From: Opitutus sp. ER46
Lineage (GTDB): Bacteria > Verrucomicrobiota > Verrucomicrobiia > Opitutales > Opitutaceae
Direction of reading: 5' to 3'
DNA: 64,000 nt
Assembly (NCBI RefSeq): GCF_003054705.1
Contig: NZ_QAYX01000020.1
Span: forward strand, 124,001-188,000
The notes beneath the pieces were generated by a model. That model made no database searches. It saw only the letters and a list, made by a program, of their open reading frames with translations, and was not told the origin of the DNA. Both the position numbers and the translations under genes were made by a program. Positions 17,503 through 62,226 of this stretch are shown here, piece by piece. The number at the start of each line of letters is the position of its first letter. Positions within the stretch are counted from its first letter, which is position 1.

Positions 17503-17506
<4 letters not shown>

Positions 17507-17880
17507 AGAGCGAGGCGTTTCATTGCACGGGTGAGCACAGTCGAACGGAAATTGAACAGGAGACCAATCCGGCAGCGCGTGAACTTCAGGTACGTCAGCA
17601 CCTGTGCCTGGTGGACCTCAAGCAGCTCATCGACGGCCTTCAGTTCCACGACAACGGATCCTTCGACGAGAAAATCCAGCCGGTAGGCGTCGTCGATCAC
17701 CAGGTTCTTATAGGTCACCGGACAACGCGTCTGTTGCTGATAGGCGAGACCGCGGAGCTGAAACTCGTGCCCAAGTGCGCGCTCGTAGGCCGATTCCAGC
17801 AAGCCGGAGCCGAGTTCTCGGTGGACCTCAATCGCGGCACCGATGATACGCTCCGTGACCGCGTTGATCTGTGGGTTCAT
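17503..17880 (-). CDS. GxxExxY protein (PDDEXK_3 family)
   Basis: A 125-residue protein that carries the family signature GLLESAY (G-x2-E-x2-Y) within ELGSGLLESAYERAL. Later residues DFLVEG and VVELKAV resemble a PD-(D/E)xK nuclease core, as in the PDDEXK_3 (GxxExxY) family. The function is unestablished. Members are often short, multi-copy and near repeats; that is recalled family knowledge. The ATG at 17878-17880 sits just inside the right repeat, which supplies GGAGG about 8-12 bases upstream as an apparent Shine-Dalgarno. The stop overlaps the gatB GTG. It separates gatA from gatB and appears to be an inserted cassette. Confidence 0.9.
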
Positions 17881-24584: not shown

Positions 24585-24612
24585 AAAAAAGCCCCGGACG
24601 CGGGTCCGGGGC
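24585..24612 (-). terminator. Intrinsic terminator of the Ton motor operon
   Basis: A 9-bp GC stem (24591-24599 with 24604-24612) closes a GCGG loop. Six A residues at 24585-24590 read as T on the minus strand. It sits 27 bases past the stop of the last operon gene. Confidence 0.92.
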
Positions 24613-24639
24613 TCGAAAGACATGTACTGGCGGAAGGCC

Positions 24640-25170
24640 TTACTTCTTGACCGGCGGCGGCGGCATCTTGGCCAGGCCGCTGGCGCCAGCACGCTGGGAC
24701 AGCATGGCGGTCAGGTGCTGCTGCTGCAGCTCGGCGTTGCGCTTGGCGACGCGGGCGAGCTCAACCTGCTTGGCGAGTTCGAAGTCCTCGCGGCTGGTCT
24801 GGTCCTTCACCTTGTGCAGACGATCGAGTTCGATCTCGAGTTCGGAAGCCTGCTTGGCGGACTTGTCGGCCTCGCCACGGAACTGGGCGATGGCGTCACG
24901 CAGCTCCTTGTCAGCGGCCTGCTGCTTGCGCACGCGCTCCTCTTCCTTCTTCCGCTCCTCTTCCTCACGCTCCTGCTGGCGCTTCTGGGCGTCGACCTGG
25001 GCGCGAAGTTCGGCTTCCTTCTTGAGGCGGGCCGCTTCCTTGCGATCGGCTTCCACCTTCTCAATGCGAGCCTTCTCGCGAGCCTCGGCCTCCTCCACGT
25101 GCGAAGTGTAGACCAAAAGGAAACCCCCGAGCATCAGCGCCGGGAAAATGACGTACATCCACTTTTTCAT
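24640..25170 (-). CDS. Membrane-anchored coiled-coil protein, Ton operon, second copy
   Basis: A 176-residue protein with one N-terminal TM (MYVIFPALMLGGFLLVYTS, about residues 5-23). A long charged coiled coil follows (about residues 24-165) rich in Glu, Lys, Arg and Ala, ending in PPPPVKK. The N-in topology would put the coiled coil in the periplasm. It resembles the product of the preceding gene (25189-25725) in architecture but not in exact sequence. It is last in the operon exbB-exbD-exbD-tonB-TPR-coil-coil. No name or function is known; a structural or coupling role for the Ton motor is inference. Confidence 0.75.
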   Translation of the reverse strand: MKKWMYVIFPALMLGGFLLVYTSHVEEAEAREKARIEKVEADRKEAARLKKEAELRAQVDAQKRQQEREEEERKKEEERVRKQQAADKELRDAIAQFRGEADKSAKQASELEIELDRLHKVKDQTSREDFELAKQVELARVAKRNAELQQQHLTAMLSQRAGASGLAKMPPPPVKK

Positions 25171-25188
25171 CTGTAAGTTGGGTAAGAG

Positions 25189-25725
25189 TTAGGATGACTT
25201 CTTGGCAGCGCGCTCGGCCTCGATGCGGGCTTTTTCAGCCGCATCGATCTTCTCGATCACGCCAGTGAGGGACTGGGTATTGGCTTCGGCCTGCTTGACG
25301 AACTCGCGAAGGAAGGTCGCCTCGTCCTGCAGTGACTTCTTGTCCTGCTCGATCTTGGCGATGGCCTCCTTGGTCTCGGTGATATCCTTCTGCAGGCGCT
25401 TCACTTGGTCGGCGTACTTGCGAGCGTCTTCCTGCGCCTTGCGGCGTTCCTGCCCCATGCGCTCACGAGCGTCGCGCTCGGCGGCGTCACGGGCATCGCG
25501 CTCAGCCTTCTCCTTCTTGCGCTTTTCCGTGGCGGCCACCGCGTCAGCGATTGCCTTCTCGCGCTGGCGAGCCTCTTCACGAAGCTTCGCGTCGCGATCA
25601 TCCTTGATCTTCTTCTCAGCCATCGCGAGGCGCTCCTCGTAGCCGGAGGCATATCGGATGTAGAACACGGCGAAGATGGCCGTCGCCACAAGCGGCACGA
25701 CGAAATAGAGGTAGCTTTTCTTCAT
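25189..25725 (-). CDS. Membrane-anchored coiled-coil protein, Ton operon, first copy
   Basis: A 178-residue protein starting MKKSYLYFVVPLVATAIFAV, with a single TM at about residues 5-25 and a periplasmic-side coiled coil (about 30-175) dense in Lys, Glu, Arg and Ala. It lies 12 bases downstream of the TPR gene and 18 before its paralogue-like neighbour, so all three are one unit. The shared plan with the next gene (MKK start, short TM, long charged helix) suggests an old duplication. No family was recognised. Such charged coils are low-complexity, so similarity searches will give spurious hits. Confidence 0.75.
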   Translation of the reverse strand: MKKSYLYFVVPLVATAIFAVFYIRYASGYEERLAMAEKKIKDDRDAKLREEARQREKAIADAVAATEKRKKEKAERDARDAAERDARERMGQERRKAQEDARKYADQVKRLQKDITETKEAIAKIEQDKKSLQDEATFLREFVKQAEANTQSLTGVIEKIDAAEKARIEAERAAKKSS

Positions 25726-25737
25726 TAGAGTAGAGAA

Positions 25738-27141
25738 TTAGAGCTTTTTGGCGGCGGGTTTGGCGGAGGCTTTGGCAGCTTCACGCTCGGCCATGGTCGC
25801 TTCGATGCCGTCGCGGACACCCTTGACCTGCGAGTCTTTGGCGCCCTCCGGGAAGCTGGCAGCCTTGGTGATGGCCTTCAGCGCACCGTCGAAGTCTTCC
25901 AGTTCCAAGGACGTGTAAGCCAGGAAGAGGTAAATCTGGTGAGGCTTTTCGCCGAGGTCGGGCTTGGTCACCGCCCGGGCGTACGCCTGGTTGGCCTCCT
26001 TGATCCGGTCCATCTGCTGGTAAATCTGGCCGATGAGGAAGTCCAAGGTGCCATCGGTCGGGAACAGCTTGGTCGCTTCCTGCAGCGCCGAGACGGCCTG
26101 AAGCTCCTTGTTCGCCTGCTGGTAGTAGGCGCCGAGGATGCGCCAGTTGGCGGCGGTGGACTCGATCGTGCCCTTCTTCATCCCGCTATACAGGAGGTCG
26201 GTTGCGAGACCGATTTCACCAGCATTCAGGTACAGGGTGAAGAGATTGTAGTTGTCGCGGGGCGTGTTCATGAACCCGAGCTGCTGAGCGCGCTCGAGCG
26301 TATTGATGGCCCGGACAAAGTACTCGCGCTGTTCGCGGCTCTCACTCTTGGCCGAACCCGCCATGTTGACGTAAGTGCCGAACAGCATCGGCCAGACGTC
26401 CTTCTTGTTCGGGTACTGCTTGACGAGGAGCTCCATGAGCTCGGACGCGCGGACCAGATCGTTCTGCTGCTGGATAATTGCGAGGAGCAGGAGGTAGAAG
26501 CCTTCCTTCGGACGAACCGAACCAAGCATGCCATTTTCGACGATCTCGCGAGCCTCGGCGAGGAGCGCCTGGTTGACGTTCTTCTGGTCGCCCGTGGCCT
26601 GGTAGAACAGGATTTGGGCGTAGAGCATCTGAACCTCAGCCTCAGGTTTCGGCGACTTCTCCAGGTAGCGCTTCAGGTAGCCGGCCGCCCGGGTAATCTG
26701 CACCTGCTGGGCCGCACGATCCTTCAGATTGCTCGCCTCGCTGAAGATCAGCTGGGCGAGAAACTTGGTGATATCGATACGCTCCTTCTCGGCGAGATAG
26801 CCGTGTTCTTCCGCGAGACGGAGGGCTTTCTCCCAAGGGTCGATCGCTTTGCCGTACTGATCGAGCTGGAGATAGATCTTGGCCTTAAGATCCAGGAGGT
26901 AGCAGGCGTCGTAGCCCGTCGCGGGGACGTTCTTCAGTTGGCCGTCAACCACGTCCAACATGCCATTGAAATTCTTGGCGTCCTGCAGCGGCTTCAGCTT
27001 CTGGAGTGCCTCGCCGACCTTCTCATTCAGCTGGAACTGCTTCTGCTCCTCAGCGGAGGAGAATGGAGCAGCCAGGAAGAGAGCGGTGGCGAAGCCAACC
27101 CACGCTAGCCGGCGGAAGATTGGATTTCGATTGGTGATCAC
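25738..27141 (-). CDS. Periplasmic TPR protein in the Ton operon
   Basis: A 467-residue protein with an N-terminal signal peptide (LAWVGFATALFLAAPFSSAEE) and a solenoid of tetratricopeptide-type helices throughout. An example is a canonical unit near residues 370-400 (DGTLDFLIGQIYQQMDRIKE then ANQAYARAV). The start is a GTG at 27139-27141. It follows tonB by 9 bases. TPR proteins accompany some Ton systems in other diderms, where they aid energy transfer or outer-membrane assembly; that is a general parallel, not evidence for this gene. Confidence 0.82.
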   Translation of the reverse strand: MITNRNPIFRRLAWVGFATALFLAAPFSSAEEQKQFQLNEKVGEALQKLKPLQDAKNFNGMLDVVDGQLKNVPATGYDACYLLDLKAKIYLQLDQYGKAIDPWEKALRLAEEHGYLAEKERIDITKFLAQLIFSEASNLKDRAAQQVQITRAAGYLKRYLEKSPKPEAEVQMLYAQILFYQATGDQKNVNQALLAEAREIVENGMLGSVRPKEGFYLLLLAIIQQQNDLVRASELMELLVKQYPNKKDVWPMLFGTYVNMAGSAKSESREQREYFVRAINTLERAQQLGFMNTPRDNYNLFTLYLNAGEIGLATDLLYSGMKKGTIESTAANWRILGAYYQQANKELQAVSALQEATKLFPTDGTLDFLIGQIYQQMDRIKEANQAYARAVTKPDLGEKPHQIYLFLAYTSLELEDFDGALKAITKAASFPEGAKDSQVKGVRDGIEATMAEREAAKASAKPAAKKL

Positions 27142-27150
27142 GGGAAGCGG

Positions 27151-27807
27151 TTACTCGTCGTTAAGAGTGAAGACAATCGGCACCTGCATGTGGGTGTTCA
27201 CGTTACGGCCACCCTTGCGGCCGGGCTTGAACTTCCACTTGCTGACCGCCTGAACGGCCGGAGCCTCAAATTCGCGCTGCGTCGACTTGACCGCATACGC
27301 GTTCTGCACCTCGCCGTTGGCGTCGACGATGAAGTCGACCGTCACCTCGCCGGTGACGCCGGCGCGGCGCATTTCAAACGGGTACTGCGGCGGCGTGCGG
27401 ACGCGCGCCACGGGTTGCTGGTCGAGGCTGGCGAGATCGAACACCTTCATGCCACGGAACTGCGACATGTCGCGGTTCTCGGGAATGGCGACAATGCCCG
27501 TGGCCGGCTTAACATTCTCCGGGGGCGGCGGCTGGATGCGCTGCACGAACGAAGTGTCAGTCACGACCTGCGGAACATCCGTCTGCATCGGCGGAGCAAA
27601 GTCCATCGGCTTGACCGGCTCGTCGCTGGTTTCGACGACTTCGGGTTCCTCAGGCTCGATCGGAGGCATTTCCACCACCTGAATGACCGGGCGCTCCTCC
27701 ACTTTCTTTTGTTCCACCTTCTTCTCCGGAATCAGACGTTCACCAAAGAACGCTCCGCCGTGAATTAGCGCAGAAACGATAAAACCAATGATTAGATCGC
27801 GACGCAT
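27151..27807 (-). CDS. tonB: TonB energy transducer
   Basis: A 218-residue TonB. An N-terminal TM (LIIGFIVSALIHGGAFFGE, residues about 5-23) is followed by a Pro/Glu/Val-rich periplasmic linker (PEEPEVVETSDEPVKPMDF). The TonB C-terminal domain is at about 130-215, with YPFEMRRAGVTGEVTVDFIV and AVSKWKFKPGRKGGR. It spans the periplasm to push energy to outer-membrane receptors. It sits inside the operon, 12 bases after the second exbD. Confidence 0.94.
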   Translation of the reverse strand: MRRDLIIGFIVSALIHGGAFFGERLIPEKKVEQKKVEERPVIQVVEMPPIEPEEPEVVETSDEPVKPMDFAPPMQTDVPQVVTDTSFVQRIQPPPPENVKPATGIVAIPENRDMSQFRGMKVFDLASLDQQPVARVRTPPQYPFEMRRAGVTGEVTVDFIVDANGEVQNAYAVKSTQREFEAPAVQAVSKWKFKPGRKGGRNVNTHMQVPIVFTLNDE

Positions 27808-27819
27808 TGCGAGCGGTGG

Positions 27820-28266
27820 TTATTTGCCCGTGGGGCTGGTGACGGTTTCGACCGACACTTGGTCGATCCTGGCCTTCCGGACCTCGTCCAACACCTGGAC
27901 GACCGGACCGAACTTTGCCCGATTGTCACCGCGGACGAGCACGCGGGGCGCGCTCTCACGGTTTCGGACATTCTCGAGACGAGGCGCGAGCTCACTGGCA
28001 GAAACCAGTTCCGGTGCACCCCGGGCGCCAACCTTCCAGTAGTAAGTGCCGGAATCCGACACCTGGATGTTGATCGTCGTCTCGTCGATCTTGCCGCTGA
28101 CTTCGGCGCTGGCCTTCGGGAGCGTCACGGGAACGGACGCGATCTTGTCGAGTGACAGCGTAAAGAGAACGAATGTGGCGAGGAGGAAGAAGATGACGTC
28201 GATCAGAGGGATGATCTCGATACGCGCCTTTTTTCTGCCTTCTTGCGCCTTGGGACTTCCAGCCAT
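27820..28266 (-). CDS. exbD: ExbD/TolR-family motor subunit, second copy
   Basis: A 148-residue biopolymer-transport protein. A short cytoplasmic N-terminus (KKARIEIIPLIDVIFFLLAT) leads into a TM carrying the proton-binding Asp (PLID), followed by a periplasmic domain. The first 40 residues are almost identical to those of the neighbouring exbD, while the periplasmic half has diverged, pointing to a tandem duplication. The upstream region shows CCTCCTCTCTCACC rather than a Shine-Dalgarno. Confidence 0.93.
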   Translation of the reverse strand: MAGSPKAQEGRKKARIEIIPLIDVIFFLLATFVLFTLSLDKIASVPVTLPKASAEVSGKIDETTINIQVSDSGTYYWKVGARGAPELVSASELAPRLENVRNRESAPRVLVRGDNRAKFGPVVQVLDEVRKARIDQVSVETVTSPTGK

Positions 28267-28311
28267 GGTGAGAGAGGAGGTTGAGTTTGGACTGCGCCTT
28301 GGGCGGGCGGC

Positions 28312-28737
28312 CTATTTGGCCTGACGGACTTTCGTCTCGATCAGGACCTTTTCGAAACCGGCTTTGCGGGCCTCGTCGAAGACGTAGACTGCCGCGTTGA
28401 ACGAGGCGTTCTCGTCACCGTTGATGAGAATGCGGCCGTCCGGATTCGAGGTGTGAAAGACCTGCAGCCGACGCAGGAATTCGTCCAGATTTACGAACTC
28501 CGTGTCCCAAGCGAGGGTGCCCTGCTCGGTGACAGAAATCGTGTGCGTTCCTTCGGTGGCCCGGGGTTCCCCCGTGAAAACCTGCGGCAGGGTAACCCGG
28601 ATGCCTTGCGTCTTGTTCAGTGACAACGTGAACAAAACGAACGTAGCGAGGAGGAAGAAGATGACGTCGATCAGAGGAATGATCTCGATGCGCGCCTTCT
28701 TCGGCCTGCCGCTAACTTGAGCGGTTGATCCAGCCAT
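28312..28737 (-). CDS. exbD: ExbD/TolR-family motor subunit, first copy
   Basis: A 141-residue paralogue of the adjacent exbD with the same TM and conserved Asp (EIIPLIDVIFFLLATFV). The periplasmic domain ends YVFDEARKAGFEKVLIETKV. Motors of this class are ExbB5-ExbD2, so two ExbD forms could build a heterodimeric pore helix pair. It lies 45 bases before the second exbD and 81 after exbB. Confidence 0.93.
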   Translation of the reverse strand: MAGSTAQVSGRPKKARIEIIPLIDVIFFLLATFVLFTLSLNKTQGIRVTLPQVFTGEPRATEGTHTISVTEQGTLAWDTEFVNLDEFLRRLQVFHTSNPDGRILINGDENASFNAAVYVFDEARKAGFEKVLIETKVRQAK

Positions 28738-28818
28738 GATATTAGAGAGCTCGGAGGAGTTGAGAGCCTGAGGGTATACGGTCGGTGAGCGGTTTTCTTA
28801 GGCCGCTCACCGCGAAGG

Positions 28819-29490
28819 TCAGCGAGCAGCGCTCTCCGACTTCTTCATCAGCAGCTCAAGGGCGTGCGAAACGTCGGCCACTTCCTGCTTCGCAACCTCA
28901 GCGCGAGCGTTCACGTAATTGAAGGGGAACAGGCCCGCGATGGCGATGGCCAGACCGCACATGGTGGCGATCAGCGCCTCGGCGACACCACCGGTGATCT
29001 GACCGGCCGCAGCGCCGATATCACCCGTGAGGGAGCCGAAGGTGCGCATCATGCCCGTGACCGTGCCGAGGAGGCCGAGGTACGGAGCCGCCGTGATGCA
29101 GGTATCAAGCGTAGCCATGCCCTGCTGGAAGCGGGCGAGCTCGTGACCAGACGCGCGCACGAACGCGGTCGACATGGAGCTGTCGCGGTTCATGAGGCTG
29201 TACACCACGATCTTGGCGAGGAAGTCCTTGCTCTTCTTGCCGATGGCCAGAGCGGCTTCGACATCACCGCGCTCGACGTTCTCGAGCATCTTTTCGACGA
29301 CCTCGGGTTCACGGGTCGCATTCTCGCGCATGATGAAGATCAGACGCTCGATCACGACGGTGATCATCACAAAGGAGAGCAACAGAATCGGCCACATGAT
29401 CTGCTTACCGGCGAGGAACAGATCCATGAACGACATATCGCTGCCGTCGGGATTTCTCAGCAAAAACGCGATGACTACGTTGTTAATCAT
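28819..29490 (-). CDS. exbB: ExbB/TolQ-family proton-channel subunit
   Basis: A 223-residue MotA/TolQ/ExbB protein. TM1 is at about residues 31-52 (ILLLSFVMITVVIERLIF). The later pair lies around the conserved TITAAPYLGLLGTVTGMM-type core (LDTCITAAPYLGLLGTVTG) and ATMCGLAIAIAGLFPFNYV. It is the first gene of the seven-gene Ton operon. The ATG is directly preceded by TTCCTCCT, the complement of a Shine-Dalgarno. It supplies the proton-driven stator for TonB. Confidence 0.94.
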   Translation of the reverse strand: MINNVVIAFLLRNPDGSDMSFMDLFLAGKQIMWPILLLSFVMITVVIERLIFIMRENATREPEVVEKMLENVERGDVEAALAIGKKSKDFLAKIVVYSLMNRDSSMSTAFVRASGHELARFQQGMATLDTCITAAPYLGLLGTVTGMMRTFGSLTGDIGAAAGQITGGVAEALIATMCGLAIAIAGLFPFNYVNARAEVAKQEVADVSHALELLMKKSESAAR

Positions 29491-33011: not shown

Positions 33012-35261
33012 ATGTTTGCCGCGTCACGCCTCACCACCGCCTTTCTCGCCCTCGTTTTGGCCGCCGCTGCTTCAGCTGCGACTTCGCCAACCGCTCAGGA
33101 TGCCCGCGTCCGTGAACTCCTCGCCCGGATGTCGCTCGAGGAGAAGATCGGTCAGCTCAATCAATACTCCTCCCGTGAACTTAAGACCGGCCCCGGCTCC
33201 GATGAGGATCTCGTCGCCATGGTCACGCGCGGCCAGATCGGCAGCCTCCTCAACGTCATCGGGGCGGAAGAAACGCGCAAGTGGCAGAAGCTCGCGGTCG
33301 AGTCCTCTCGGCACCACATCCCGCTGCTCTTCGGCCTCGACGTTATCCACGGCTACCGGACCGTCTTTCCCATCCCGCTCGCCACCGCCGCGTCCTGGGA
33401 CCTGGCCTTGATCGAGCGCGCCGAGCGCATCGCCGCCACCGAAACCGCGGCCGCCGGCGTGCATTGGACGTTTGCTCCCATGGTCGACATCTCCCGCGAT
33501 CCGCGCTGGGGCCGCATGTCCGAGGGCCCGGGCGAGGACCCGTACCTTGCCGCCGCCATCGCCCGCGCCCGCGTGCACGGTTTTCAGGGCGATGACCTCG
33601 CCGCCGTCGACACCGTGCTCGCGTGCGTAAAGCACTTCGCCGCTTACGGCGCCGCCCAGGCCGGACGTGACTACTTCACCACCGATGTCACGGAGCGCGT
33701 GCTGCGCGACGTGTACCTGCCGCCCTTCCGCGCGGCCGTCGACGCCGGCGTCGGCACCGTCATGGCGGCCTTCAACGACCTCGACGGCACTCCCGCCTCG
33801 GCCAATGCCTTCCTGCTCGACCGCGTCCTCCGCCGAGAATGGGGCTTCCGCGGCTTCGTGGTCTCCGACTGGGCCAGCATCCGTGAGATGCTCGAGCACG
33901 GCAACGTCGCCAATCTCCATGAGGCCGGACTCAAGGCCTTCGCCGCCGGGCTCGACATGGACATGGAGAGCAATGCCTACCGCGACACCCTTGCCGCCGA
34001 CGTCAAATCCGGCGTGATCGCCCCGGCCCGCCTCGACGCCGCCGTCACCGCCATCCTCACCGCCAAGGCGCGCCTTGGCCTGCTCGACGATCCTTTCCGC
34101 TATAGCGATGAGTCCCGCGAAAAGGCCACTCTCCTCAAGCCCGAGTTTCTCGCCGCCGCCCGCGAAGCGGCCTGTCGCTCCTGCGTCTTGCTCAAGAACG
34201 AGCACGGCATCCTGCCGCTGGCGACAGGTAACATCACCGTCGGGCTGGTTGGTCCCCTGGCCGATGCACCGTACGACCAGATGGGCGCCTGGCACGGGCG
34301 AGGCCGCAAGGAGGACAGCATCACGCTCCTGCGCGCGCTCGAACAACTCCTGCCGCCGGAACGCCTGAAATTCGCCGCCGGGTGCGCCGCCAACGATCTT
34401 GAGACCGCCGGGATCGTGGCCGCCCGCCGCGTCGCCGAGGAGTCTGACGTCGTGATCGTCGCCGTCGGCGAAGGCGCCGACCAGAGCGGCGAAGCCACCA
34501 GCCGCGCCTCGCTCGATCTCTCCGGTCCTCAACTCGAGCTCCTCCGCGAAGTTCACGCCGCCGGCAAACCGATCGTCCTCGTCCTCCTGACCGGACGCCC
34601 ACTCATGATCGAAGCCGTCGAACCGCTCGTCGACGCCATCCTCGTCGCCTGGCACCCCGGCACGATGGGCGGCCCTGCCATCACTGATGTCCTGACCGGG
34701 GCCTACAATCCTTCCGGTCGGCTGCCGGTCACGTGGCCCCGCTCCGTTGGCCAGATTCCGATTTTCCACGCGCAGAAGAACTCGGGACGTCCGCAGCCGA
34801 AGTCGGCCAGCGACCGGTACTACTCCCACTACATCGATTCGCCGAACACGCCCCTTTACCCGTTTGGTTTCGGGCTGAGCTACACGCACTTCGAGTACGA
34901 TCAGCTGCGGCTCAGCGCGCCCCGCATTCAGCCTGATGCCGCCCTCAGCGTGACCGTGCGCGTGCGTAACGCCGGCGCGCGTGCCGGCGAGGACGTCGTG
35001 CAACTCTACCTCCGTGACCACGTCGGCTCGGTCACGCGTCCCGTGCGGGAGCTGAAGGGGTTTCGGAAGATCTCCCTCGCCGCCGGCGAAGCGCAGGACG
35101 TGAGTTTCACGCTTACGCCCGCCGAGCTCGCCTTCTGGCGCGCCGACATGACCTTCGGCGTCGAGCCGGGAACCTTCAGCGTATTCGTCGGCGCCAATGC
35201 GATGGCACCACTCACCGCCTCGTTCGAGGTCGAGCCAGCCGTCCGCGCCGCTAGCCGCTGA
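33012..35261 (+). CDS. bglX: Glycoside hydrolase family 3 beta-glucosidase, secreted
   Basis: A 749-residue BglX-like exo-acting hydrolase. A signal peptide (about 1-22) is followed by the GH3 TIM-barrel with KHFAAYG and the nucleophile D286 in GFVVSDWASIRE, then the alpha/beta sandwich domain (about 390-600), and a C-terminal fibronectin-III-like domain (about 660-735). It should cleave terminal beta-glucosyl units in the periplasm. Its 3' end abuts the convergent response regulator at 35268. CTCCTCC-rich sequence lies upstream of its ATG. Confidence 0.93.
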   Translation: MFAASRLTTAFLALVLAAAASAATSPTAQDARVRELLARMSLEEKIGQLNQYSSRELKTGPGSDEDLVAMVTRGQIGSLLNVIGAEETRKWQKLAVESSRHHIPLLFGLDVIHGYRTVFPIPLATAASWDLALIERAERIAATETAAAGVHWTFAPMVDISRDPRWGRMSEGPGEDPYLAAAIARARVHGFQGDDLAAVDTVLACVKHFAAYGAAQAGRDYFTTDVTERVLRDVYLPPFRAAVDAGVGTVMAAFNDLDGTPASANAFLLDRVLRREWGFRGFVVSDWASIREMLEHGNVANLHEAGLKAFAAGLDMDMESNAYRDTLAADVKSGVIAPARLDAAVTAILTAKARLGLLDDPFRYSDESREKATLLKPEFLAAAREAACRSCVLLKNEHGILPLATGNITVGLVGPLADAPYDQMGAWHGRGRKEDSITLLRALEQLLPPERLKFAAGCAANDLETAGIVAARRVAEESDVVIVAVGEGADQSGEATSRASLDLSGPQLELLREVHAAGKPIVLVLLTGRPLMIEAVEPLVDAILVAWHPGTMGGPAITDVLTGAYNPSGRLPVTWPRSVGQIPIFHAQKNSGRPQPKSASDRYYSHYIDSPNTPLYPFGFGLSYTHFEYDQLRLSAPRIQPDAALSVTVRVRNAGARAGEDVVQLYLRDHVGSVTRPVRELKGFRKISLAAGEAQDVSFTLTPAELAFWRADMTFGVEPGTFSVFVGANAMAPLTASFEVEPAVRAASR

Positions 35262-35267
35262 GGCCCC

Positions 35268-35912
35268 TCAGAGCCGCAGGATCCCCCGCTGCAGTGCGAG
35301 CGTGACCGCCTGGGTGCGGTCCGCCACGCGGAGCTTGGCCAGGATGCTTTTCAGGTGATCCTTCGCCGTGTGCTCACTGATGTGGAGCGCGTCCGCGAGT
35401 TCCTTATTGGAAAGCCCCTTGGCCACTTCCCGCAGCACATCGAGTTCACGCGTCGTCAGCTCCTCGAAGAGCTGCCGTGACTTCAAGCGGGTCGCGACGT
35501 TCTGCGGAATCCAGCGCCGTCCCGCCGCGACCGCCCGAATCGCGGGAATGAGTTCCTCCCCGGTCGCGCTCTTCAGCACATAGCCGTTGGCGCCCGCCGC
35601 GAGGGCGTTGTGGATCTCCTCGTCGCCATCAAAGGCGCTCAACATCAGGATGCGGGCCCGTTCCGACACGCGTCTGATCTCCGCCGTCGCCTCCGGGCCA
35701 GACTTTCCCGGCATGCGCAGGTCCATCAGCACGAGATCCGGCTGCAGTTCACGGAAGAGCGCGATCGCCCGGTCACCGTCGTCCGCCTCGCCCACGACGC
35801 GCAGGTCCGGCTCGGTGTTCACGAGCGCGACGAGCCCGATCCGCACGACAAAGTGATCGTCCACCACGAGCACGCGCAGCGGCTCCTCCGCCGTACCGGG
35901 CAGCGCGCTCAT
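35268..35912 (-). CDS. NarL/FixJ-type response regulator
   Basis: A 214-residue regulator. The receiver has the acidic pair D18/D19, phospho-acceptor D64 in VLMDLRMPGKSG, and the expected Ser and Lys later. The LuxR-type HTH is in the C-terminal third (LTTRELDVLREVAKGLSNKE then ISEHTAKDHLKSILAKL). It overlaps the kinase gene by 4 bases (35909-35912). Its place amid glucan-hydrolase genes suggests control of that locus. Confidence 0.94.
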   Translation of the reverse strand: MSALPGTAEEPLRVLVVDDHFVVRIGLVALVNTEPDLRVVGEADDGDRAIALFRELQPDLVLMDLRMPGKSGPEATAEIRRVSERARILMLSAFDGDEEIHNALAAGANGYVLKSATGEELIPAIRAVAAGRRWIPQNVATRLKSRQLFEELTTRELDVLREVAKGLSNKELADALHISEHTAKDHLKSILAKLRVADRTQAVTLALQRGILRL

Positions 35913-38158
35913 ACCGTGCCCTCCGGCTTGTCCGCCTCCTGGCCGAGCGGAATCGACACACTCACCGTCGTGCCCTCGCCCGGCGCGCCCACGACCGCGA
36001 AGCGACCGCCCAGGCGCTTGCTGCGCTCCGCCATGCCCAGCATCCCGAAGCGCGAACCGGACTTGGCCGCCAGCTTCTCCGGCACCAGCCCGGTGCCGTT
36101 GTCACGGACCGCCAAGGTCACGGTCTCGTCGGTGAACCCGAGGCGGATCGTGGCCAGCGTGGCGCCCGAGTGCTTCACCACGTTGGTGAGCGCCTCCTGG
36201 CCAATGCGCAGGAGATTCTCCTCGACGATCTCCGGCAGCGGTCGCACCGGGCCGTCCGTTTCCAGCTCCACCCGCAACGGCGTGCCTTCGGCCACTTGCC
36301 GGGCCGCGTGGAGCAGCGCCTTCGCGATATCGAACTCCTCCAGCTCGCGCGACCGCAGGTCCCAGATCGAACGACGCAGCTCGAGCTGACTCTGCTTCAT
36401 GAAACCGCGCGCCAGATCGAGGTGCTTTTCGGCCTCTGGCGGTGCTCGGGACAGCAGCTTGGCCGCCGTTTCGAGCTGCAGGGAGATGCCCGTGAGCGCC
36501 TGCTCGAGCGTGTCGTGCAGGTCCCGCGCGAGGCGCGTGCGCTCCGCCAACGTTGCCTTGAATTCCACCTCCGCCGCTCGGCGCGCACTCATCTCCACCT
36601 GCAACTCGCGGGTCCGCTCCTTGACCCGCTCCTCCAACTGGTCGTGGGCCTGCTGCAGCTCGCGCTGCGCGCGTTCCCGCTCCGCCACCAGAAAACTCAG
36701 CATCGTGTTCTTCTTCGAGACGGTCACGGACCAGCCGATTCCCGCCAGCGCCACGACCAGCAACGCCCCCACCAGCACTGCCAGCCGCGTGGTCGTGAAC
36801 CAACTCGGCGTCTGCAGCACCTGCATGTCTTCGGGCGTCCGCTGGATTAGGGAAAGCGTGCGCAGCTGCCCATCGTCGCCAGTCTCCGTCGCCGCCACGC
36901 CCGTGGCCGCGACCATGCTGCCCAGCGGGATCTCCGCCAGCCGGTTGTTGTCGGGCTCGTGCTCGCATTCGACGGTGAAGGTGAGGTCGGCGTTCTGCAC
37001 GGTGCAGAGGGTGCGCATGCCCGAAAACCCGCCCAGGTCGCGCCGCACCGGCCGCACCGTCCGCCCCACCAGTCGACCTCGCAGCGCCACGAGTTCGTTC
37101 GCATGAAAACCGTCGCGCAGTTCCGCAAACGTCACCTCCCGCGGGGTCACCGCCGCCGGCGTCACGTCCGTGCGGCGGCACCGCGCGTCCTCGAGCACGG
37201 GACGGAAGCCGGCAATGTTGAGGAAGCCGGTCGCTTCGATCGTATCGCCCGGCCGCAGCCGGATGCTCTGCACGGTCTGCACGTGCAGGCCGCCCGTGCT
37301 GTCCTGGATGTAGAGTTCGAGTCCGGGCCGGAACAACGTGACGACGCCGCGCACATGGATGCGGCCGCCGCGGTTCAGATCCGGGCGATAGCGCGCGATT
37401 TCGCCCAGCGGCAGCACCGGTTCGCCAAAGGGCGAGCGAGCCTCGCGGTCGAGCATGACGAAATCCTCCGCCCGCGGGACATACACATTGACCGAGGTGA
37501 GCTGTCGAAGCCGCGCGTTGTAGGATGCCGCCGCCGTGCCCCGCACCTTCACCGTGCCACCGACGAGCGACTCCGGATTGAGCTGCGGCGGCAGTTTGGG
37601 AAAGACGTGCACGCGCCGTCCGCTCACCGCCACATCCACCGCCAGCTTGCGCGAGGGCACGTAATACACCGAGCGCACCGTGCCGGTGAACTCCACGCGT
37701 TGCCCGTCTTCCACGCCGGCCATCAGGCGTTCGATCGTCGTGGCCCGCGGCGGCGGCAGCTCGTCCTGCCCGTGCGTGGTCCAACCCGTCGCCAGCACGA
37801 TCGGGGCAAAGGCGCCGCGGCTCGTCGTGCCCCGCAGCGAAACCTTTTCCCCAATCTGCGGTTGCCGGTCCGGTCCCACCACGAATACGCCGCCACTCTT
37901 GTCCTGCACGAAAAACTTTCCTTCCCAGTCGGGCTCCGCCGCCGTCACCACCCCGGAGAGTGTCACCGGGAGGTGCGTCGCCGCGATGTCACTGGGCAGG
38001 GCCAGGATTTCCGCCGCGGCCGTCAACGGCCCTTCGTCCGCGCGGGCAGGCAGGACGGCCAGCAGCAGGATGACGATCCCGACTAAGCGAAGCAATGGAG
38101 CGCGCTGGAACAAGGGGGGGAAGGGCGGTGACGTTACGGCCCGGACGTTTGATTCCAA
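35909..38158 (-). CDS. Sensor histidine kinase with OB-like periplasmic repeats
   Basis: A 749-residue membrane kinase. A signal or TM near residues 24-40 precedes a large extracytoplasmic part (about 45-455) made of recurring beta units that look like OB folds. Examples are LSGVVTAAEPDWEGKFFVQD, VEFTGTVRSVYYVPSRKLA, HVRGVVTLFRPGLELYIQD and VALRGRLVGRTVRPVRRDL. A second TM (about 460-482) leads to a coiled linker and a HisKA_3 domain with phospho-acceptor H548 (RDLHDTLEQALTG). The HATPase domain has RDNGTGL and GMLGMAERSKRLGG. It pairs with the overlapping NarL-type regulator. The ligand is unknown; glucan fragments are plausible from context. Confidence 0.9.
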   Translation of the reverse strand: MESNVRAVTSPPFPPLFQRAPLLRLVGIVILLLAVLPARADEGPLTAAAEILALPSDIAATHLPVTLSGVVTAAEPDWEGKFFVQDKSGGVFVVGPDRQPQIGEKVSLRGTTSRGAFAPIVLATGWTTHGQDELPPPRATTIERLMAGVEDGQRVEFTGTVRSVYYVPSRKLAVDVAVSGRRVHVFPKLPPQLNPESLVGGTVKVRGTAAASYNARLRQLTSVNVYVPRAEDFVMLDREARSPFGEPVLPLGEIARYRPDLNRGGRIHVRGVVTLFRPGLELYIQDSTGGLHVQTVQSIRLRPGDTIEATGFLNIAGFRPVLEDARCRRTDVTPAAVTPREVTFAELRDGFHANELVALRGRLVGRTVRPVRRDLGGFSGMRTLCTVQNADLTFTVECEHEPDNNRLAEIPLGSMVAATGVAATETGDDGQLRTLSLIQRTPEDMQVLQTPSWFTTTRLAVLVGALLVVALAGIGWSVTVSKKNTMLSFLVAERERAQRELQQAHDQLEERVKERTRELQVEMSARRAAEVEFKATLAERTRLARDLHDTLEQALTGISLQLETAAKLLSRAPPEAEKHLDLARGFMKQSQLELRRSIWDLRSRELEEFDIAKALLHAARQVAEGTPLRVELETDGPVRPLPEIVEENLLRIGQEALTNVVKHSGATLATIRLGFTDETVTLAVRDNGTGLVPEKLAAKSGSRFGMLGMAERSKRLGGRFAVVGAPGEGTTVSVSIPLGQEADKPEGTV

Positions 38159-38195
38159 GTCTTTCGCCAGGCAGCCACCGCCATTCGCGGGCGGA

Positions 38196-39611
38196 CTACC
38201 GCAGCTTCAGCGTCATGATCGAGTGCGCCGGACTCGTCGTGGCCGCCTCGCGTCCGCTCACCCAGACGCGGAAAGCCTGGGCACGGTCGCTCCCATTCAT
38301 CACCACCACGGCAAGCGTACCGTCCTGGTTCCGAAACGCCGTCGTCGCGAGGCTGTCGGCCGTCGACGAGCTGACGATCCGCGCGGCGCCGGGCCGGACG
38401 AACTTCGAGAAATGCCCGAGATAGTGGAACGAGTTGGTATAGATCAGCTCGCCCGTCGCGGTGTCGGCATGCACGGGCGCGTAGCAGAAGTTGCCGACGT
38501 GATTTGGTCCGCCGCGCTCATCGAGCAGGATGTTCCAATCCGTCCATCCTTCCGCGCCGTTGTTGAAGTCCTCGATCATCGCACGGCCGTACTTTTCCCC
38601 GAGGGTCCAGTCGCCAAGCTTCGCCCGGTCGTACGGATAATTGCAGGCCTCCGTGAAGAGGAGATGTGTTTTCGGATACGCCTCGCGGACCAGGCGGGTG
38701 TTGGCATGGCCGTCGTCGGTGTACCAGTGGAAGCCCACGCCCCAGACGTACTTCGCCGCCGCGGGGTCATCCAGGATCACCTGCGCGCGTTGATACATCC
38801 AGGTGCGATTGTGATCCCAAACGATGATCTTCGTGTCTCCGAGTCCGCTGCGCGCAAGCGTCGGACCAAGGTGATCGCGCACGAAGTCGCGCTCCTCCTC
38901 CGGGGAAAACAGGCAGGATTCCCACTTCTGCACCGCCATCGGCTCGTTCTGCACGGTAAGCCCCCAGATCGGGACACCCGCCTTCGCATAGGCCTTCACA
39001 AACTCGGCCATGTAGCGGGCCCACACGTCGCGGTGCTCGGCCTTGAGGTGGCCGCCGCGGAGCATGTTGCCGTTGTCCTTCATCCAGCCCGGCGGGCTCC
39101 AGGGGCTCGCGAACAACGTCAGCTTTCCTTTCGCCGCCGCCAGCGCGGCCCTGATCAGCGGCAACCGCGCCCGTTCATCCGGGGCGATCGAGAAGCTCTT
39201 CAGCGAAGCGTCTCCCTCCGTGACATAGGTGTAACTCGAACTGGAGAAGTCGCAGCTGTGGATACTCGTCCGCCCCAGCGTGTAGCCGATACCAGCCTCA
39301 GGGTCGTAATATGCACGAATCAACTCCGCGCGCTTCGTTTCGGGCAGCTTCGCCCAGGTGTCGGCCGCCGCATCGGTCAAGGCGCCACCGATTCCGATGA
39401 TCGTTTGGAACGACTTCGCCGCATCGACGTAGATCAGTGCCTCCTTCTCGGTGATCGGAGTCACGGGGACGAGCGACTGCGCGGGCGCGGCTCTCAAGCG
39501 CTGCCCCGTATCGCGCGCCGTGACGAAAATCTCCACGCGATCGACCGCGTGGAGCGGCAGGACGCTACTAGCCAGGACAGCGCAGACGGTAAGGGACGAA
39601 CGGAATCTCAT
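38196..39611 (-). CDS. Glycoside hydrolase family 30 beta-glucanase, secreted
   Basis: A 471-residue GH30 enzyme. A signal peptide (about 1-22) is followed by the catalytic barrel, with proposed acid/base E223 (LTVQNEPMAVQKW) and nucleophile E321 (LLFTEACNYP). The IIGIGGALTDAAADTWAKL stretch and SPWSPPGWMKDNGNMLRGG fit this family. The C-terminal part (about 390-471) is the usual beta-sandwich. Subfamily and substrate (beta-1,6-glucan or glucosylceramide-like) need a tree. It overlaps the upstream gene by 4 bases and belongs to a run of glucan genes. Confidence 0.92.
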   Translation of the reverse strand: MRFRSSLTVCAVLASSVLPLHAVDRVEIFVTARDTGQRLRAAPAQSLVPVTPITEKEALIYVDAAKSFQTIIGIGGALTDAAADTWAKLPETKRAELIRAYYDPEAGIGYTLGRTSIHSCDFSSSSYTYVTEGDASLKSFSIAPDERARLPLIRAALAAAKGKLTLFASPWSPPGWMKDNGNMLRGGHLKAEHRDVWARYMAEFVKAYAKAGVPIWGLTVQNEPMAVQKWESCLFSPEEERDFVRDHLGPTLARSGLGDTKIIVWDHNRTWMYQRAQVILDDPAAAKYVWGVGFHWYTDDGHANTRLVREAYPKTHLLFTEACNYPYDRAKLGDWTLGEKYGRAMIEDFNNGAEGWTDWNILLDERGGPNHVGNFCYAPVHADTATGELIYTNSFHYLGHFSKFVRPGAARIVSSSTADSLATTAFRNQDGTLAVVVMNGSDRAQAFRVWVSGREAATTSPAHSIMTLKLR

Positions 39612-40684
39612 GGGGTAAGGAGGGGGTCGGACATGAGCCTGATGGAATCCGCGCCCGAGAGCACGGCTGGAATTGGCACGCTCAGCCAGTCACGCAGGAC
39701 GGACGCGTAAACGGCACGATAGTCGCGGTCGGCGCGGCCATCCGGCGGCGCGGCCAAGGTCATGGTCGGAGGCACCCGGCGGCCAGTGAGTCGCGTCCCG
39801 GCCAGCATGACCAGCGCACCGCGGCCGTGCTCCGTGCCGCCCTGCGCGTTCTCCGCGGCCGTGCGCCCAAACTCACTGAAGACGACCGTCAACACCCGAT
39901 CCGCGACCACGCGCCGCTGGATCCGCCGCTGAAAGTCCGCCAGTGCGCCGGCGAACTCGGCCAGCGGACGGGCCCCCGTCTCCCTTTGCGCGAAGTGGGT
40001 GTCGAACCCACCTCCGGCCAGGAACACTAGTTCCACGCCGTCGGTGGTTCCGACGCATTCTGCCGCCTCCGCCAGCAAACGGGGCAAGGGGCCTCCCGCG
40101 GTGTCCAGCGGCACACTCACCTCGCGGCCGCGGCCCGGCGCGCCGGCGTCAGGCGAGCGTACAAACACCCGCGGCTCGGCACGCGTTCCCCGCCAGCAGC
40201 TCACCGGCACCCCGGCGTGCTCGAGTTGCTGGGCGGTTCGGCCGAGCCAGCCCGACGCCAGGCGCTGTTCCGGCGAGGCGGGCGCGGTCTGCCAGATCTC
40301 CGTCGCCCGAAAATGCGTCGGGCAGGTCGCCCCCCACCCCACCGCGGGACAAAACAACAGCAGGCCGTCATCCCACAACCGCCCCAACGGGGCACAGGTC
40401 CGGTTCAAGGCCACCGCATCGTCCAAGCGCGTCACTTCACCCCGCCCCAGGGCGAGCGTGGGGCGCAATCGCGCGTACTCGGAGGAGCCATACGGCACCA
40501 GCACGTCAAAGGCATCGAGGCCGCCGGCGAGCTGGATCAGCACGAGGGAACAGCGGCCATTGGGCGCGCGGCCGTCCGCGGCTCGCGCCCAGGGCGATCC
40601 GCCCGGCAGCGCACTGATGGCCAGTGTGGCCCCGAGGCCGTGGATAAAGCTCCGGCGCGTCAGTGGATGAGTCAGGGGCGTCAT
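39608..40684 (-). CDS. DUF1501 protein with Tat signal
   Basis: A 358-residue protein. A twin-arginine export signal (TRRSFIHGLGATLAISALP) indicates folded export. The DUF1501 hallmarks VLIQLAGGLDAFDVLVPY, the VFSEFGRTAAENAQGGTEHG region near the C-terminal half, and LVMLAGTRLTGRRV are present. DUF1501 is related to sulfatase/alkaline-phosphatase folds and usually sits next to DUF1800, which is absent here. Instead it lies between a GH1 and a GH30 gene, coupled to the latter by a 4-base overlap. Its function is unknown. Confidence 0.88.
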   Translation of the reverse strand: MTPLTHPLTRRSFIHGLGATLAISALPGGSPWARAADGRAPNGRCSLVLIQLAGGLDAFDVLVPYGSSEYARLRPTLALGRGEVTRLDDAVALNRTCAPLGRLWDDGLLLFCPAVGWGATCPTHFRATEIWQTAPASPEQRLASGWLGRTAQQLEHAGVPVSCWRGTRAEPRVFVRSPDAGAPGRGREVSVPLDTAGGPLPRLLAEAAECVGTTDGVELVFLAGGGFDTHFAQRETGARPLAEFAGALADFQRRIQRRVVADRVLTVVFSEFGRTAAENAQGGTEHGRGALVMLAGTRLTGRRVPPTMTLAAPPDGRADRDYRAVYASVLRDWLSVPIPAVLSGADSIRLMSDPLLTP

Positions 40685-40687
40685 CGG

Positions 40688-42055
40688 CTAGACCAGGGCA
40701 TTCTGGCGGCACACCCGGCTGAACCAGGCGGCGCTCGCCTTGGGTGTCCGCACCTGCGTGGCGAAGTCGTTGTGCACGATGCCGAACCGCCGGCCATTGC
40801 CGTCGGCCCACTCAAAATTGTCGAGGAACGACCAGACAAAGTAGCCGTCCACCGGCACCCCGTCGTCACTGGCCCGCTTCAGTTCCCGCAGGCATGCGCG
40901 CAGGTACTCGAGCCGGTGCAGGTCGAAGAGTTCACCGTTCACCGGCGGCGTCTCGTCGTACCCCGCGCCGTTTTCGAGGATGTACAGATGCTCCACGCCG
41001 AAGACGCGCGCGGCCAGCCGCGGTCCCCAGTACAGCGCGCGCGCATTCAGCTTCAGCCACGGGCTGTCGGCGACGGGATAGTGCACGGGATACGCCAGCG
41101 CCTCCGGCCGGCCATCGGGGCCGCGGCGCACGCATTGCCCGGAGTAGAGGTTGAGCCCAAGAAAATCCGTGGGCTGGGTGATCAACTCGAGGTCGGTGGG
41201 CGCCATCTGCGGCAGCCATCCGCTGGTGAAATCGAGATACGTCCGGCCATAGGTGCCGCGATAGATCGGCTCGAGCACCCGGCAGCTCTGGGCGGCGAAC
41301 AGCGCTTCCGCCGCCGCAATGTCGGCGGCCTCCTCGACCAGCGGAATCGGCACGCTGCTGTTATCACAAAGCCCGACGACCGCGCCCGCCCCGCCGTGCT
41401 CCCGGACCGCGCGCACCCCATGGCCGTGGCCCACGAGCGCGTGGTGCACCGCCTGGTTGACCAACTCGGCCTTTTCCTTGCGCCCCGGCGCATGGCGGCC
41501 GATCGCGTATCCGTTGTCCACGAACACGCGGATCTCGTTCAGCGTGATCCAGTGCTTCACGCGATCGCCATAGCTGCGCACGATCAGGTCGGCATAGTCG
41601 GCGAACGCGTCCGCCACGAGCCGCTCCGGCCAGCCGCCGCGCGCCTCGAGGGCCTGCGGCAGGTCCCAGTGAAACATCGTTACCCAGGGCGTGATGCCCC
41701 GCTCGAGCAGGGCATCGATCACCCGGTGGTAGTGATCCACCCCGGCCCGGTTCACCCGCCCGTCGCCGTCCGGCATCAAGCGCGGCCACGCCAGCGACAG
41801 CCGATGATGCCGCACCCCCAGTTGCGCCATGAGGTCGAAGTCGGCCCGGTAGCGGTGATAGTGGTCGCACGCCACCGCCGGGGTGTCGCCCCGCGCGACC
41901 GCCCCCGGCCGGCGGGCGAACCCGTCCCAGACCGACGCCGACTTGCCGTCCGCGTCCGCCGCGCCCTCGACCTGCGGCGCCGCCGTCGCCACCCCCCAGA
42001 CAAAGCCGGGGGGAAACGGGGCCGGGGTGGGAGCTCGACTGAGGACGGCAGGCAT
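40688..42055 (-). CDS. Glycoside hydrolase family 1 beta-glucosidase
   Basis: A 455-residue GH1 enzyme. The N-terminal signature PGFVWGVATAAPQVEG is near the start, followed by the acid/base E174 (ITLNEIRVF) and nucleophile Glu in YILENGAGYDE. There is no signal peptide, so it is probably cytoplasmic and acts on imported disaccharides. I chose the ATG at 42053-42055 (MPAVLSRAP); a GTG three codons up (42062-42064) is an alternative. It ends 3 bases before the DUF1501 start. Confidence 0.93.
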   Translation of the reverse strand: MPAVLSRAPTPAPFPPGFVWGVATAAPQVEGAADADGKSASVWDGFARRPGAVARGDTPAVACDHYHRYRADFDLMAQLGVRHHRLSLAWPRLMPDGDGRVNRAGVDHYHRVIDALLERGITPWVTMFHWDLPQALEARGGWPERLVADAFADYADLIVRSYGDRVKHWITLNEIRVFVDNGYAIGRHAPGRKEKAELVNQAVHHALVGHGHGVRAVREHGGAGAVVGLCDNSSVPIPLVEEAADIAAAEALFAAQSCRVLEPIYRGTYGRTYLDFTSGWLPQMAPTDLELITQPTDFLGLNLYSGQCVRRGPDGRPEALAYPVHYPVADSPWLKLNARALYWGPRLAARVFGVEHLYILENGAGYDETPPVNGELFDLHRLEYLRACLRELKRASDDGVPVDGYFVWSFLDNFEWADGNGRRFGIVHNDFATQVRTPKASAAWFSRVCRQNALV

Positions 42056-42076
42056 CGCGAACACCGGGTCGGGGCG

Positions 42077-45000
42077 TCAGAACGTGCCGCGCAGGCCGAA
42101 CGTCCAGTTCGTGCCGTAATTTTCGAGTCGATACAGCACATCCGGATTGCCGGCGCTGCGTTCGAAGATGCGGTGCGGTTCCTCGAGGATGTTGCGGCCC
42201 TGGAAATAGAAGCTGAGCCCCTCGCGGATGCGGAAGCCGCCGCTGAGGTCGTACTTCACGTTCGAAACGAGATAGCGGTTGCTCGTGCCCTGGAACCAGG
42301 GGGAGTTGTCGCGCCAGACGCCGTTGAGCGCGATGTTGAACCGGCCGTAGCGATAACTCAGCCCGCCCTTCACGGAGTTCGGCACCGTGCCATAGGTGCG
42401 ACGGCTGGCCTTGGTGCGCGTGAAGGACAGGTTGAGCGCCGTGCCCTGGAAGGCGCGGGGCAGGAAGGTGAACTGCTGGAGGTACGAGACCTCCAGCGAG
42501 CGGAAGATCGTGGGCGTGTCGGCGTTCGTGAAACTCTGAAACTCGAAGCCCTCGTAAGCCGGATCGGTGTTGCCGTACTCCTCGGCGGTCAGGCGGCGCC
42601 CGACCTGCTGGTTCACCAGCTTGTTGTACGAGCCGATCACCTGGAGATTGCTGCTGCCGCTCCGCCCGAAGAAGTAGCTCATCGAGGCAACGACCTTCTC
42701 CGATCGCTCGGGCAGCAGGTTCGGGTTGGGCGTCGTGACGACCTCGTTGGTGTCATCCACCTGGCGGGTGCCGGCGATCCACTGCAGCGGCGGGCGCTTG
42801 ATCGCTTTGCCCCAGCCGATGTCGGCGAGCAGATTGGAGGCGAACGCGTATTTGGCGGTCATGCTCGGGAAGTAGTTGTGATACCTGCCCTCGCGCGCCA
42901 CGCGCGGCGCGTTCGCATACTTGTAGTCCATGCCGGCCCACGTGGTTGGATTCCCCGAAGCGTCAACGGGGTATCCGGCCGCCACGATCTCGCTGCGCGA
43001 GCGCGGCATCAGGTCCTTCGACTCGATCCGGGTTTCCTCGAAGCGGACGCCGCCCTGCAGGCGGAGCTTGTTGATGCGGCTGTTGGCCATGAGGTACGCC
43101 GCCGGAATCGTCTCCCGCACGTCGAAGGTCGGGCTGTTCGTGTAGCGGCCCTGCTCGTACTGCGCGGTGGTGATGATGCCCTCGCTCTCTCCCCGGACGA
43201 AATACTCGGGATGCGAGCGGAAGAGTTCGCCGAGCATGTCGCGATTCGGGAACGCCGGCGCGCCGCCGCCGCCGATCGAGGTGAACGTCGCGCCCACCTG
43301 GTTGCCCGCGCCATAGAGCCGGAAATCGCTCGGGAACTGCGCGAAAGTGCCCGTCGCGCCGCCACCGGGCCCGGCGTAGCGCCAGACATCATAGGCATTG
43401 GAGCTGCTCGTGATGCGGTGACTCGCGGTCATCTTGCCGCCCACCCGCAGGAAGGTTGGAAACCGCGTTGGCAGATTGTAGCGCGCGTTCAACTGGCCCT
43501 GCGTGAGGTCATTGTCGTCCTTGCGGTTATCGTCGGAGATGCGCGGATTCACGTAGCTCGCCAGGTCGGCCCAGTCCGCCCCACCCGTCTGGGTGAAATG
43601 CCAGTCGGCGTCTCCCCCGCCAGACCGTGCCGCCGAAAACTGGATATTCTGGAGGTTGTTCACCAGCGTGTTGCCCGCAGTGCCCCGCACGAGGTTGTCG
43701 TAATCGTTGTGCGCGCTGGAGTACGAGAAGGCGCCGTCCAGCTGGATGTTCCCACGCCGGTACTCGAACCGCGGGCTGATCGTCGTGGTGTGGCTGAGCT
43801 TGATGCCGTTGCCGCCTCCCATCACGACCTGCCGGGACGTCGCGCCGCTCGTGGTCATGGTGCCGAACGCGAGCACCCCGTCGCCGCCGACGTTCTGGCG
43901 GCCGGTGGCCGCGCCGGTGTTGTTGGCCGAAGCCTGCATCGTCACCTGCCGGTTGTAGAAGCGCGCATCGTAGCCGTTGTAGATCACGCTCAGCGAGAGC
44001 GTCAGGAACTCGGTCGCGCGGAAGTCCGCGGTCAGCGAACTGGTGAACCGCTTCGTCCACTTTGGTCCGTCCTTCAGGAGGATCTGGGTCAGGACCTGCG
44101 GCCGGGGGTCCGCCGCCGTCGGCGTCCGGTTGTAGGTGTGGTCCACCCGGTACTGCTCGTTGTAGAGATTCGACTCGCTGATCCCAACGAGGATGCCGAG
44201 CCGGTTGTTCAGGAACACGTCGGAGTAGTTCAGGCTGTAGTTGGGCCGGAACTTTCGGCCGTAGCTGTCGCTCGGGCCGACGGTGCGCTTGAGCGTGAAT
44301 TCCTCCGTGTTCAGCACGGTGCTCAGGTTCCAGCCGATACGGCGTCCCTTGAGGTCGAATGCCCGGCGGGTCTTGAGGTCGATGTTGCCCGCCGGGGCGT
44401 TGGCATCCATCGCCGGGCTCGTGACCCGGTTCACGTCGATCGAGTCGATGCTGTTGATCGAAACCTGCTCAAAACCGAAGGAGCGGTTCGACGTGCCCGC
44501 AGCGGAGTTTTCGAACGCGGTGTACTGCGTAAAGGCATCGGCGCTTGCCACGCCCATCCCGTCCATCGTGACGCTCGCATACTCCGAGCCCATGCCGCCG
44601 AGGCGCGGACCGCGCGTGTCGGCCTCGACGTACTCCAGCTCGACGCCCGGCAGGTACTTCAGAAACTCGCCCACATTACCTTCCGTGACGTCGCCAAAGG
44701 CGTCCGAGGAGATCGACTGGCTCATCGTCATCGACTCCTTCTGCCGCTGCAGCGCCTTGGCGTTGCCCTCGCGCTCGCTGTTCACGACGAACGCCTCGAG
44801 CTTCAGCACGGACTCCTTGCTCGCGGCTGCCGCGGGGTCGGCCGCCGGCACGAGCTCAAGATCCCGCGTGGCCGTGCCGCCCGGGGCGAGGGTCACCACC
44901 GCCTGACTCTGCGGGTAGCCGACATAGCTCACGGAAACGGTGACGGCGCCGGCTGGCACCTGCGAAAGCTGGTAATAGCCGCCCGCCTCGGTGATGGCCG

Positions 45001-61988: not shown

Positions 61989-62226
61989 AGATGCTGGGCC
62001 AACGGTTTGCATGGCATCGTGGCCGCCACCCTCCGGGGACGAGGGGCCGACGGAACACGACAGGGGGTTGTAGCTTCGTTCCCTAATGCGCCAAAGGTCG
62101 CGCAAAGCCGACATGGCTTCGCGCCGCCCGCCTCAACCGGCCGCCGCGGCGGCGCCGCCCACCTCCTTCCCGCCGGCCCGCCGCGCCGCGCGGGCGCAAC
62201 CGTCTCCTGCCCCGCACCTCACCAGC

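Follow-up and report, generated by a model that had tools for sequence, protein, structure and literature searches.

The window, a stretch of 64,000 nt from contig NZ_QAYX01000020.1 of Opitutus sp. ER46, carries on its minus strand seven ORFs (exbB, exbD1, exbD2, tonB, TPR, CC1 and CC2), all at the positions given in the first-pass annotation. The features of this cassette, in operon order, are as follows.

28819..29490, minus strand: ExbB, the motor channel subunit, 223 aa (Pfam MotA_ExbB, 1.7e-23)
28312..28737, minus strand: ExbD1, 141 aa (Pfam ExbD, 1.8e-24; transmembrane segment PLIDVIFFL with the motor aspartate)
27820..28266, minus strand: ExbD2, 148 aa, second ExbD paralogue (Pfam ExbD, 4.9e-23; same aspartate segment PLIDVIFFL)
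27151..27807, minus strand: TonB, 218 aa (Pfam TonB_C at the C terminus, 2.4e-19; N-terminal transmembrane segment with S-x3-H)
25738..27141, minus strand: TPR protein, 467 aa, GTG start, Sec-type signal peptide (Pfam TPR models)
25189..25725, minus strand: CC1, 178 aa, single transmembrane anchor plus one long predicted helix (alignment of 36 sequences; AlphaFold2)
24640..25170, minus strand: CC2, 176 aa, CC1 paralogue by profile (alignment of 35 sequences; AlphaFold2; hhalign 99.1% to CC1)
24589..24614, minus strand: terminator-like hairpin, 11 pairs plus a T tail (consensus match only; 25 nt past CC2)

The ORFs and the Pfam matches agree with the initial reading of this locus as exbB, two exbD genes and tonB followed by genes for a TPR protein and two coiled-coil proteins. 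As in canonical ExbB-ExbD-TonB systems, there is an ExbB, an ExbD with the motor aspartate and a TonB with S-x3-H and a C-terminal domain; unlike those systems, the cassette has two ExbD paralogues and three further linked genes. The S-x3-H motif reads S-A-L-I-H here and is kept in most relatives. Together with the PLIDVIFFL segment in both ExbD proteins, its presence in the TonB transmembrane segment makes the motor look functional. The intergenic gaps calculated from the coordinates are 81, 45, 12, 9, 12 and 18 nt in operon order; relatives typically show 6–25 nt for the four 3′ gaps and 30–60 nt for the two 5′ gaps. The spacing, described earlier as short and constant, is thus short (9–81 nt) and constant only loosely. 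A final terminator had been claimed as well; the hairpin does lie 25 nt after CC2 and is the strongest of eight terminator-like sites, but such sites are no commoner than chance, the expectation for that stretch being 9.2.

To what extent the seven genes stay together was determined in relatives. CC1 was present in 18 of 38 sampled relatives, every one within the genus, and all same-genus loci reaching far enough have the identical seven-gene order (one, L023, stops at a contig end after three genes). Other genera of the family yielded 40 loci with the same order, one of them (L071) cut short on its exbD1 side. These 40 loci had been chosen by TPR match, and a scan with CC2 alone was therefore run to remove this selection. 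With the closer subset of the CC2 alignment as a query against a collection of 84,980 species genomes, we obtained 63 loci, all with Verrucomicrobiota titles. The complete order was called automatically in 49 of the 63; two more (L177 and L186) proved complete when inspected, except for a tonB frame that is split or open frames that overlap, and the remaining incomplete loci, with one exception, end at contig ends. The exception (L191:6131-8150), from a metagenome-assembled genome, has an operon reduced to exbB-exbD-tonB, with a C-terminal fragment of CC2 only; the short frame carrying the CC2 C-terminal motif differs from the frame of the apparent signal peptide. The last three genes are therefore linked to exbB wherever contigs allowed, this one reduced variant aside; their unlinking, named beforehand as what would speak against a single machine, was not observed. 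Conservation of the gene order, which was to be checked across Verrucomicrobiota, holds within the family and not phylum-wide.

The genes around the cassette change. Of 56 loci, only 9 have the downstream rplT/pheS genes near the cassette and 4 have pabB, so that the seven genes make up the conserved unit. The cassette is also duplicated as a whole: four complete copies are present in one genome (G042) and two in each of two others (G041 and G070), and a TPR copy number of two to four in a genome goes with two to four whole cassettes. In a pair of recent duplicates (L088 and L089), identity is 96–99% for ExbB/ExbD, 87–92% for CC1/CC2, 82% for TonB and 69% for the TPR protein. Pairwise distances of the TPR protein, CC1 and CC2 correlate best among themselves (0.75–0.76). 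It is very improbable that these three proteins have an unrelated function and merely share a transcript with the motor genes; CC1 and CC2 do lack a homologue of known function, but the gene order is kept while both flanks change, duplication involves the whole unit, and TPR and CC2 co-occur in nearly the same genomes.

Some variation among the copies was also seen. The TPR protein is the most diverged part between L088 and L089 and is perhaps a specificity part. One cassette has three CC-type genes rather than two (L094:7050-8729), and an extra broken copy of CC2 (L239:186-509) is situated downstream of one of the four G042 cassettes.

TonB-dependent receptors are abundant in the family, and several extra cassettes adjoin genes for them. 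A receptor gene is located downstream of the cassette on the same strand at about 55 nt in L093 and at about 330 nt in L088; a siderophore-type binding protein and then a receptor come after the cassette in L091, and in L096 a receptor is upstream. The ER46 genome itself has at least 51 matches to the receptor plug domain, with two receptors in the window. Five ExbD matches were counted in this genome and four were located: besides the cassette, there are a separate tolQ-tolR-tolA-like locus (L226, identified by sequence reading and ExbB/ExbD profile matches) and an ExbB-ExbD pair with no tonB gene next to it (L225). Among the located ExbD matches, no ExbB-ExbD-TonB cluster other than the cassette was found, and the cassette is the main candidate for powering the many receptors of this genome.

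A TPR protein, CpoB, is encoded in Tol-Pal operons too. One might regard the cassette as a Tol-Pal-like system that stabilises the envelope and whose TPR protein corresponds to CpoB, the more so as TolQ/TolR models are among the NCBIfam matches of ExbB and ExbD. This is the least probable of the explanations considered here, given that the transducer has a TonB_C domain, that neither TolB nor Pal is among the seven genes of the operon (by ORFs and Pfam), that the same genome has the separate tolQ-tolR-tolA-like locus and that extra cassettes adjoin TonB-dependent receptors. The linkage maintained despite changing flanks, the whole-cassette duplication and the adjoining receptors support the view, suggested at first from the spacing, of a single machine, and the seven genes very probably encode one.

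Other genes in the window were noted. A glycan-use cluster is located at 33012-45244, with GH3, a LuxR-type response regulator and a HisKA_3 kinase, GH30, DUF1501 and a GH1-like gene (the GH3 and GH1 labels are from sequence only); it also holds a TonB-dependent receptor with CarboxypepD_reg domains. The second receptor gene is at 59115-62114. A gene for a small PDDEXK_3 protein (17506-17880) is situated between gatB-like and amidase (gatA-like) genes.

CC1 and CC2 were described from the start as similar proteins of unknown family, and both points are borne out. Searches against Pfam and NCBIfam gave no model above cut-off, and a search of PDB with the CC2 profile gave marginal keratin matches alone, which were taken as coiled-coil noise. 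The CC1 and CC2 profiles match each other at 99.1% (hhalign), while either one matches TtpB or the TtpC arm, used as a coiled-coil control, at 0.4–3.3%; judged by profiles, the two rods are homologues. In genome scans with the CC2 profile, CC1 of the same operon mostly scored 1e-7 to 1e-15 and nearly all unrelated coiled coils 1e-5 or weaker, the exception being a lone CC2-like N terminus in genome G100. A lone N terminus of this kind stands at L238:4912-7050, where it precedes an unrelated protein in the same reading frame, outside any Ton operon, in a genome that has the cassette as well. At the 0.4–3.3% values, no homology of CC1 or CC2 to TtpB or to the TtpC arm was found.

The two proteins have a common transmembrane motif, Y-x3-P-x6-F-x3-Y, and CC2 ends with a conserved VELAxIAKRNAELEIQR motif and a proline-rich tail. 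With the family alignments, AlphaFold2 predicts one unbroken helix for each, at residues 4–177 of CC1 and 4–163 of CC2 (pLDDT 92 in both cases). Subtraction of ∼22 membrane residues leaves ∼150 residues of helix outside the membrane in CC1 and ∼138 in CC2, which at 0.15 nm per residue gives calculated lengths of 23 and 21 nm. A length of 21–23 nm is comparable to the Gram-negative periplasm. Positively charged N termini ahead of the transmembrane segment suggest that the helices are in the periplasm. Residues 29–100 of the rods are charged, with 11–16% large hydrophobics and little heptad signal; in residues 101–140 the heptad signal is clear in CC1 and weaker in CC2. Proline is absent from residues 29–140 in all 71 CC1/CC2 sequences, and lengths are narrowly fixed (180 ± 4 for CC1 and 177 ± 4 for CC2).

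Domain II of TolA is a long, charged helix rich in Ala, Lys and Glu, anchored in the membrane next to a motor of the TolQR/ExbBD type, and the rods resemble it in all these respects. Unlike TolA in the Tol-Pal system, CC1 and CC2 lack the TolA C-terminal domain, and the cassette has a separate TonB. One may imagine CC1 and CC2 as a second mechanical shaft, a motor-coupled rod pair that would cross the periplasm beside TonB and pass motion or tension on to the TPR protein and receptors, as a force transducer with neither a TonB nor a TolA C-terminal domain; we regard this as rather doubtful. Somewhat unlikely, and less so than a second shaft, is a passive role, with the rods as assembly or stability factors that hold or protect TonB, ExbD or the TPR protein and neither span the periplasm nor transmit anything. 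Highly charged, low-complexity single helices would fit such a role, as would the moderate conservation of the rods (mean identity ∼40%, versus 61–66% for ExbB/ExbD). The narrow length, the conserved transmembrane motif and the specific conserved C terminus of CC2 speak against it and suggest that the geometry and contacts of the rods matter.

The TPR protein is not a new part, as it has a counterpart in TtpD2 of the Vibrio TonB2 system. Signal-like N termini are found on the TPR proteins across relatives, and the TPR profile matches the TPR proteins of Ttp-type operons in relatives at 99.8%, TPR matches being partly generic; a search of PDB with this profile gave generic TPR proteins only. 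The protein is probably periplasmic and TtpD-like.

The Vibrio TonB2 operon has the order ttpB2-ttpC2-exbB2-exbD2-tonB2-ttpD2, and TonB2-dependent iron uptake in Vibrio vulnificus requires both TtpB2 (DUF3450) and TtpD2 (TPR) (PMC6957404). The cassette is similar in being a Ton motor operon with a TPR gene after tonB and extra parts of coiled-coil type. The TPR protein is 425 aa and the last gene product in Vibrio TonB2, versus 467 aa and the fifth of seven in the cassette, which differs further in having two ExbD proteins and two paralogous single-pass rods encoded 3′ of the TPR gene. Pfam detected no TtpB/DUF3450 among the seven proteins, and there is no TtpC-type long ExbB, the sole exbB product being 223 aa long. 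Motor operons of the PVC group, with genes for TPR, tolQ-like, paired tolR-like and vWA transducer proteins (PMC12204202), likewise group a TPR gene with an ExbB-like gene and an ExbD-like pair. There the transducer is a vWA protein, whereas the cassette has TonB and two rods, with no vWA domain detected by Pfam in its seven proteins. A rod pair, its strict linkage and a distribution partly complementary to that of TtpB were not found in the open-licence papers searched.

In 240 genomes across the phylum, strong CC2 matches and the TPR protein were observed in one family, plus one genome of a second family in the order; within the family, CC2 is present in 63 of 80 genomes and TPR matches in 66 of 80. 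The rods are thus almost confined to one Opitutales family. In cassette-less genomes we found operons (L216–L221 and L224) with genes for DUF3450, two ExbB proteins (a long one whose coiled arm is secreted, then a short one), ExbD in one or two copies, TonB and a TPR protein; the layout is that of the V. vulnificus TonB2 operon (PMC6957404). Among good genomes, DUF3450 exceeds the cut-off in 8 of the 12 that lack the cassette versus 11 of 53 with it (Fisher P = 0.003, a value that overstates the case since related genomes are not independent). Those 8 cassette-less genomes have three to eight copies each (eight in G055), while nearly always one is present together with the cassette; one counted match, in G113, is a TtpC arm, with no effect on the presence/absence test. 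In ER46 no DUF3450 match exceeds the cut-off (best E-value 6.1e-4). The edge is blurred by a genome with a divergent cassette and five DUF3450 genes (G098); some genomes lack both systems and eleven good ones combine them, which makes the two distributions only partially complementary. DUF3450 is common elsewhere in the order and the phylum. Although related genomes are not independent samples, the simplest reading makes the Ttp type the older one in the order, later superseded in the family by the rod cassette. As CC1 and CC2 have no sequence homology to TtpB or to the TtpC arm, a replacement of these parts rests on distribution and layout.

We consider the cassette to be a lineage-specific extended Ton system in which the rods extend across the periplasm in place of TtpB and the periplasmic arm of TtpC, and the TPR protein joins them to TonB or the receptors (probability about 0.62). 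ExbB with the ExbD1/ExbD2 pair would make the proton-driven motor and TonB would transmit force to receptors, roles well established for ExbB-ExbD-TonB systems. The transmembrane motif shared by CC1 and CC2 probably docks both anchors next to ExbB/TonB. The rigid helices, whose part next to the membrane is predicted to be stiff and charged and whose outer half to be coiled-coil, probably form a pair that crosses most of the periplasm, and the secreted TPR protein probably connects their far end to TonB or to a receptor. We infer from gene linkage, topology and the analogy with Ttp systems that the rods sit next to the motor, pair with each other and touch the TPR protein. We also infer the topology, the spanning of the periplasm, the mechanical role and the need for the rods in uptake. 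That the rod pair took the place of TtpB (DUF3450) and the TtpC periplasmic arm of Vibrio-type systems in this lineage, as structural links across the periplasm, is a component of this reading to which we would give even odds.

Already known were the motor, TonB and the linkage of a TPR protein to them. The cassette bears on what makes a TPR protein and additional coiled-coil parts necessary in some Ton systems. In one family the same motor and a TPR protein come with two helical rods that are unrelated to the Vibrio-type parts, which its relatives retain; a replacement of this kind suggests that the job needed is that of a rod-like link across the periplasm. The rods are small proteins in which the role of a periplasm link may be tested, and two protein families absent from current family libraries gain a context.
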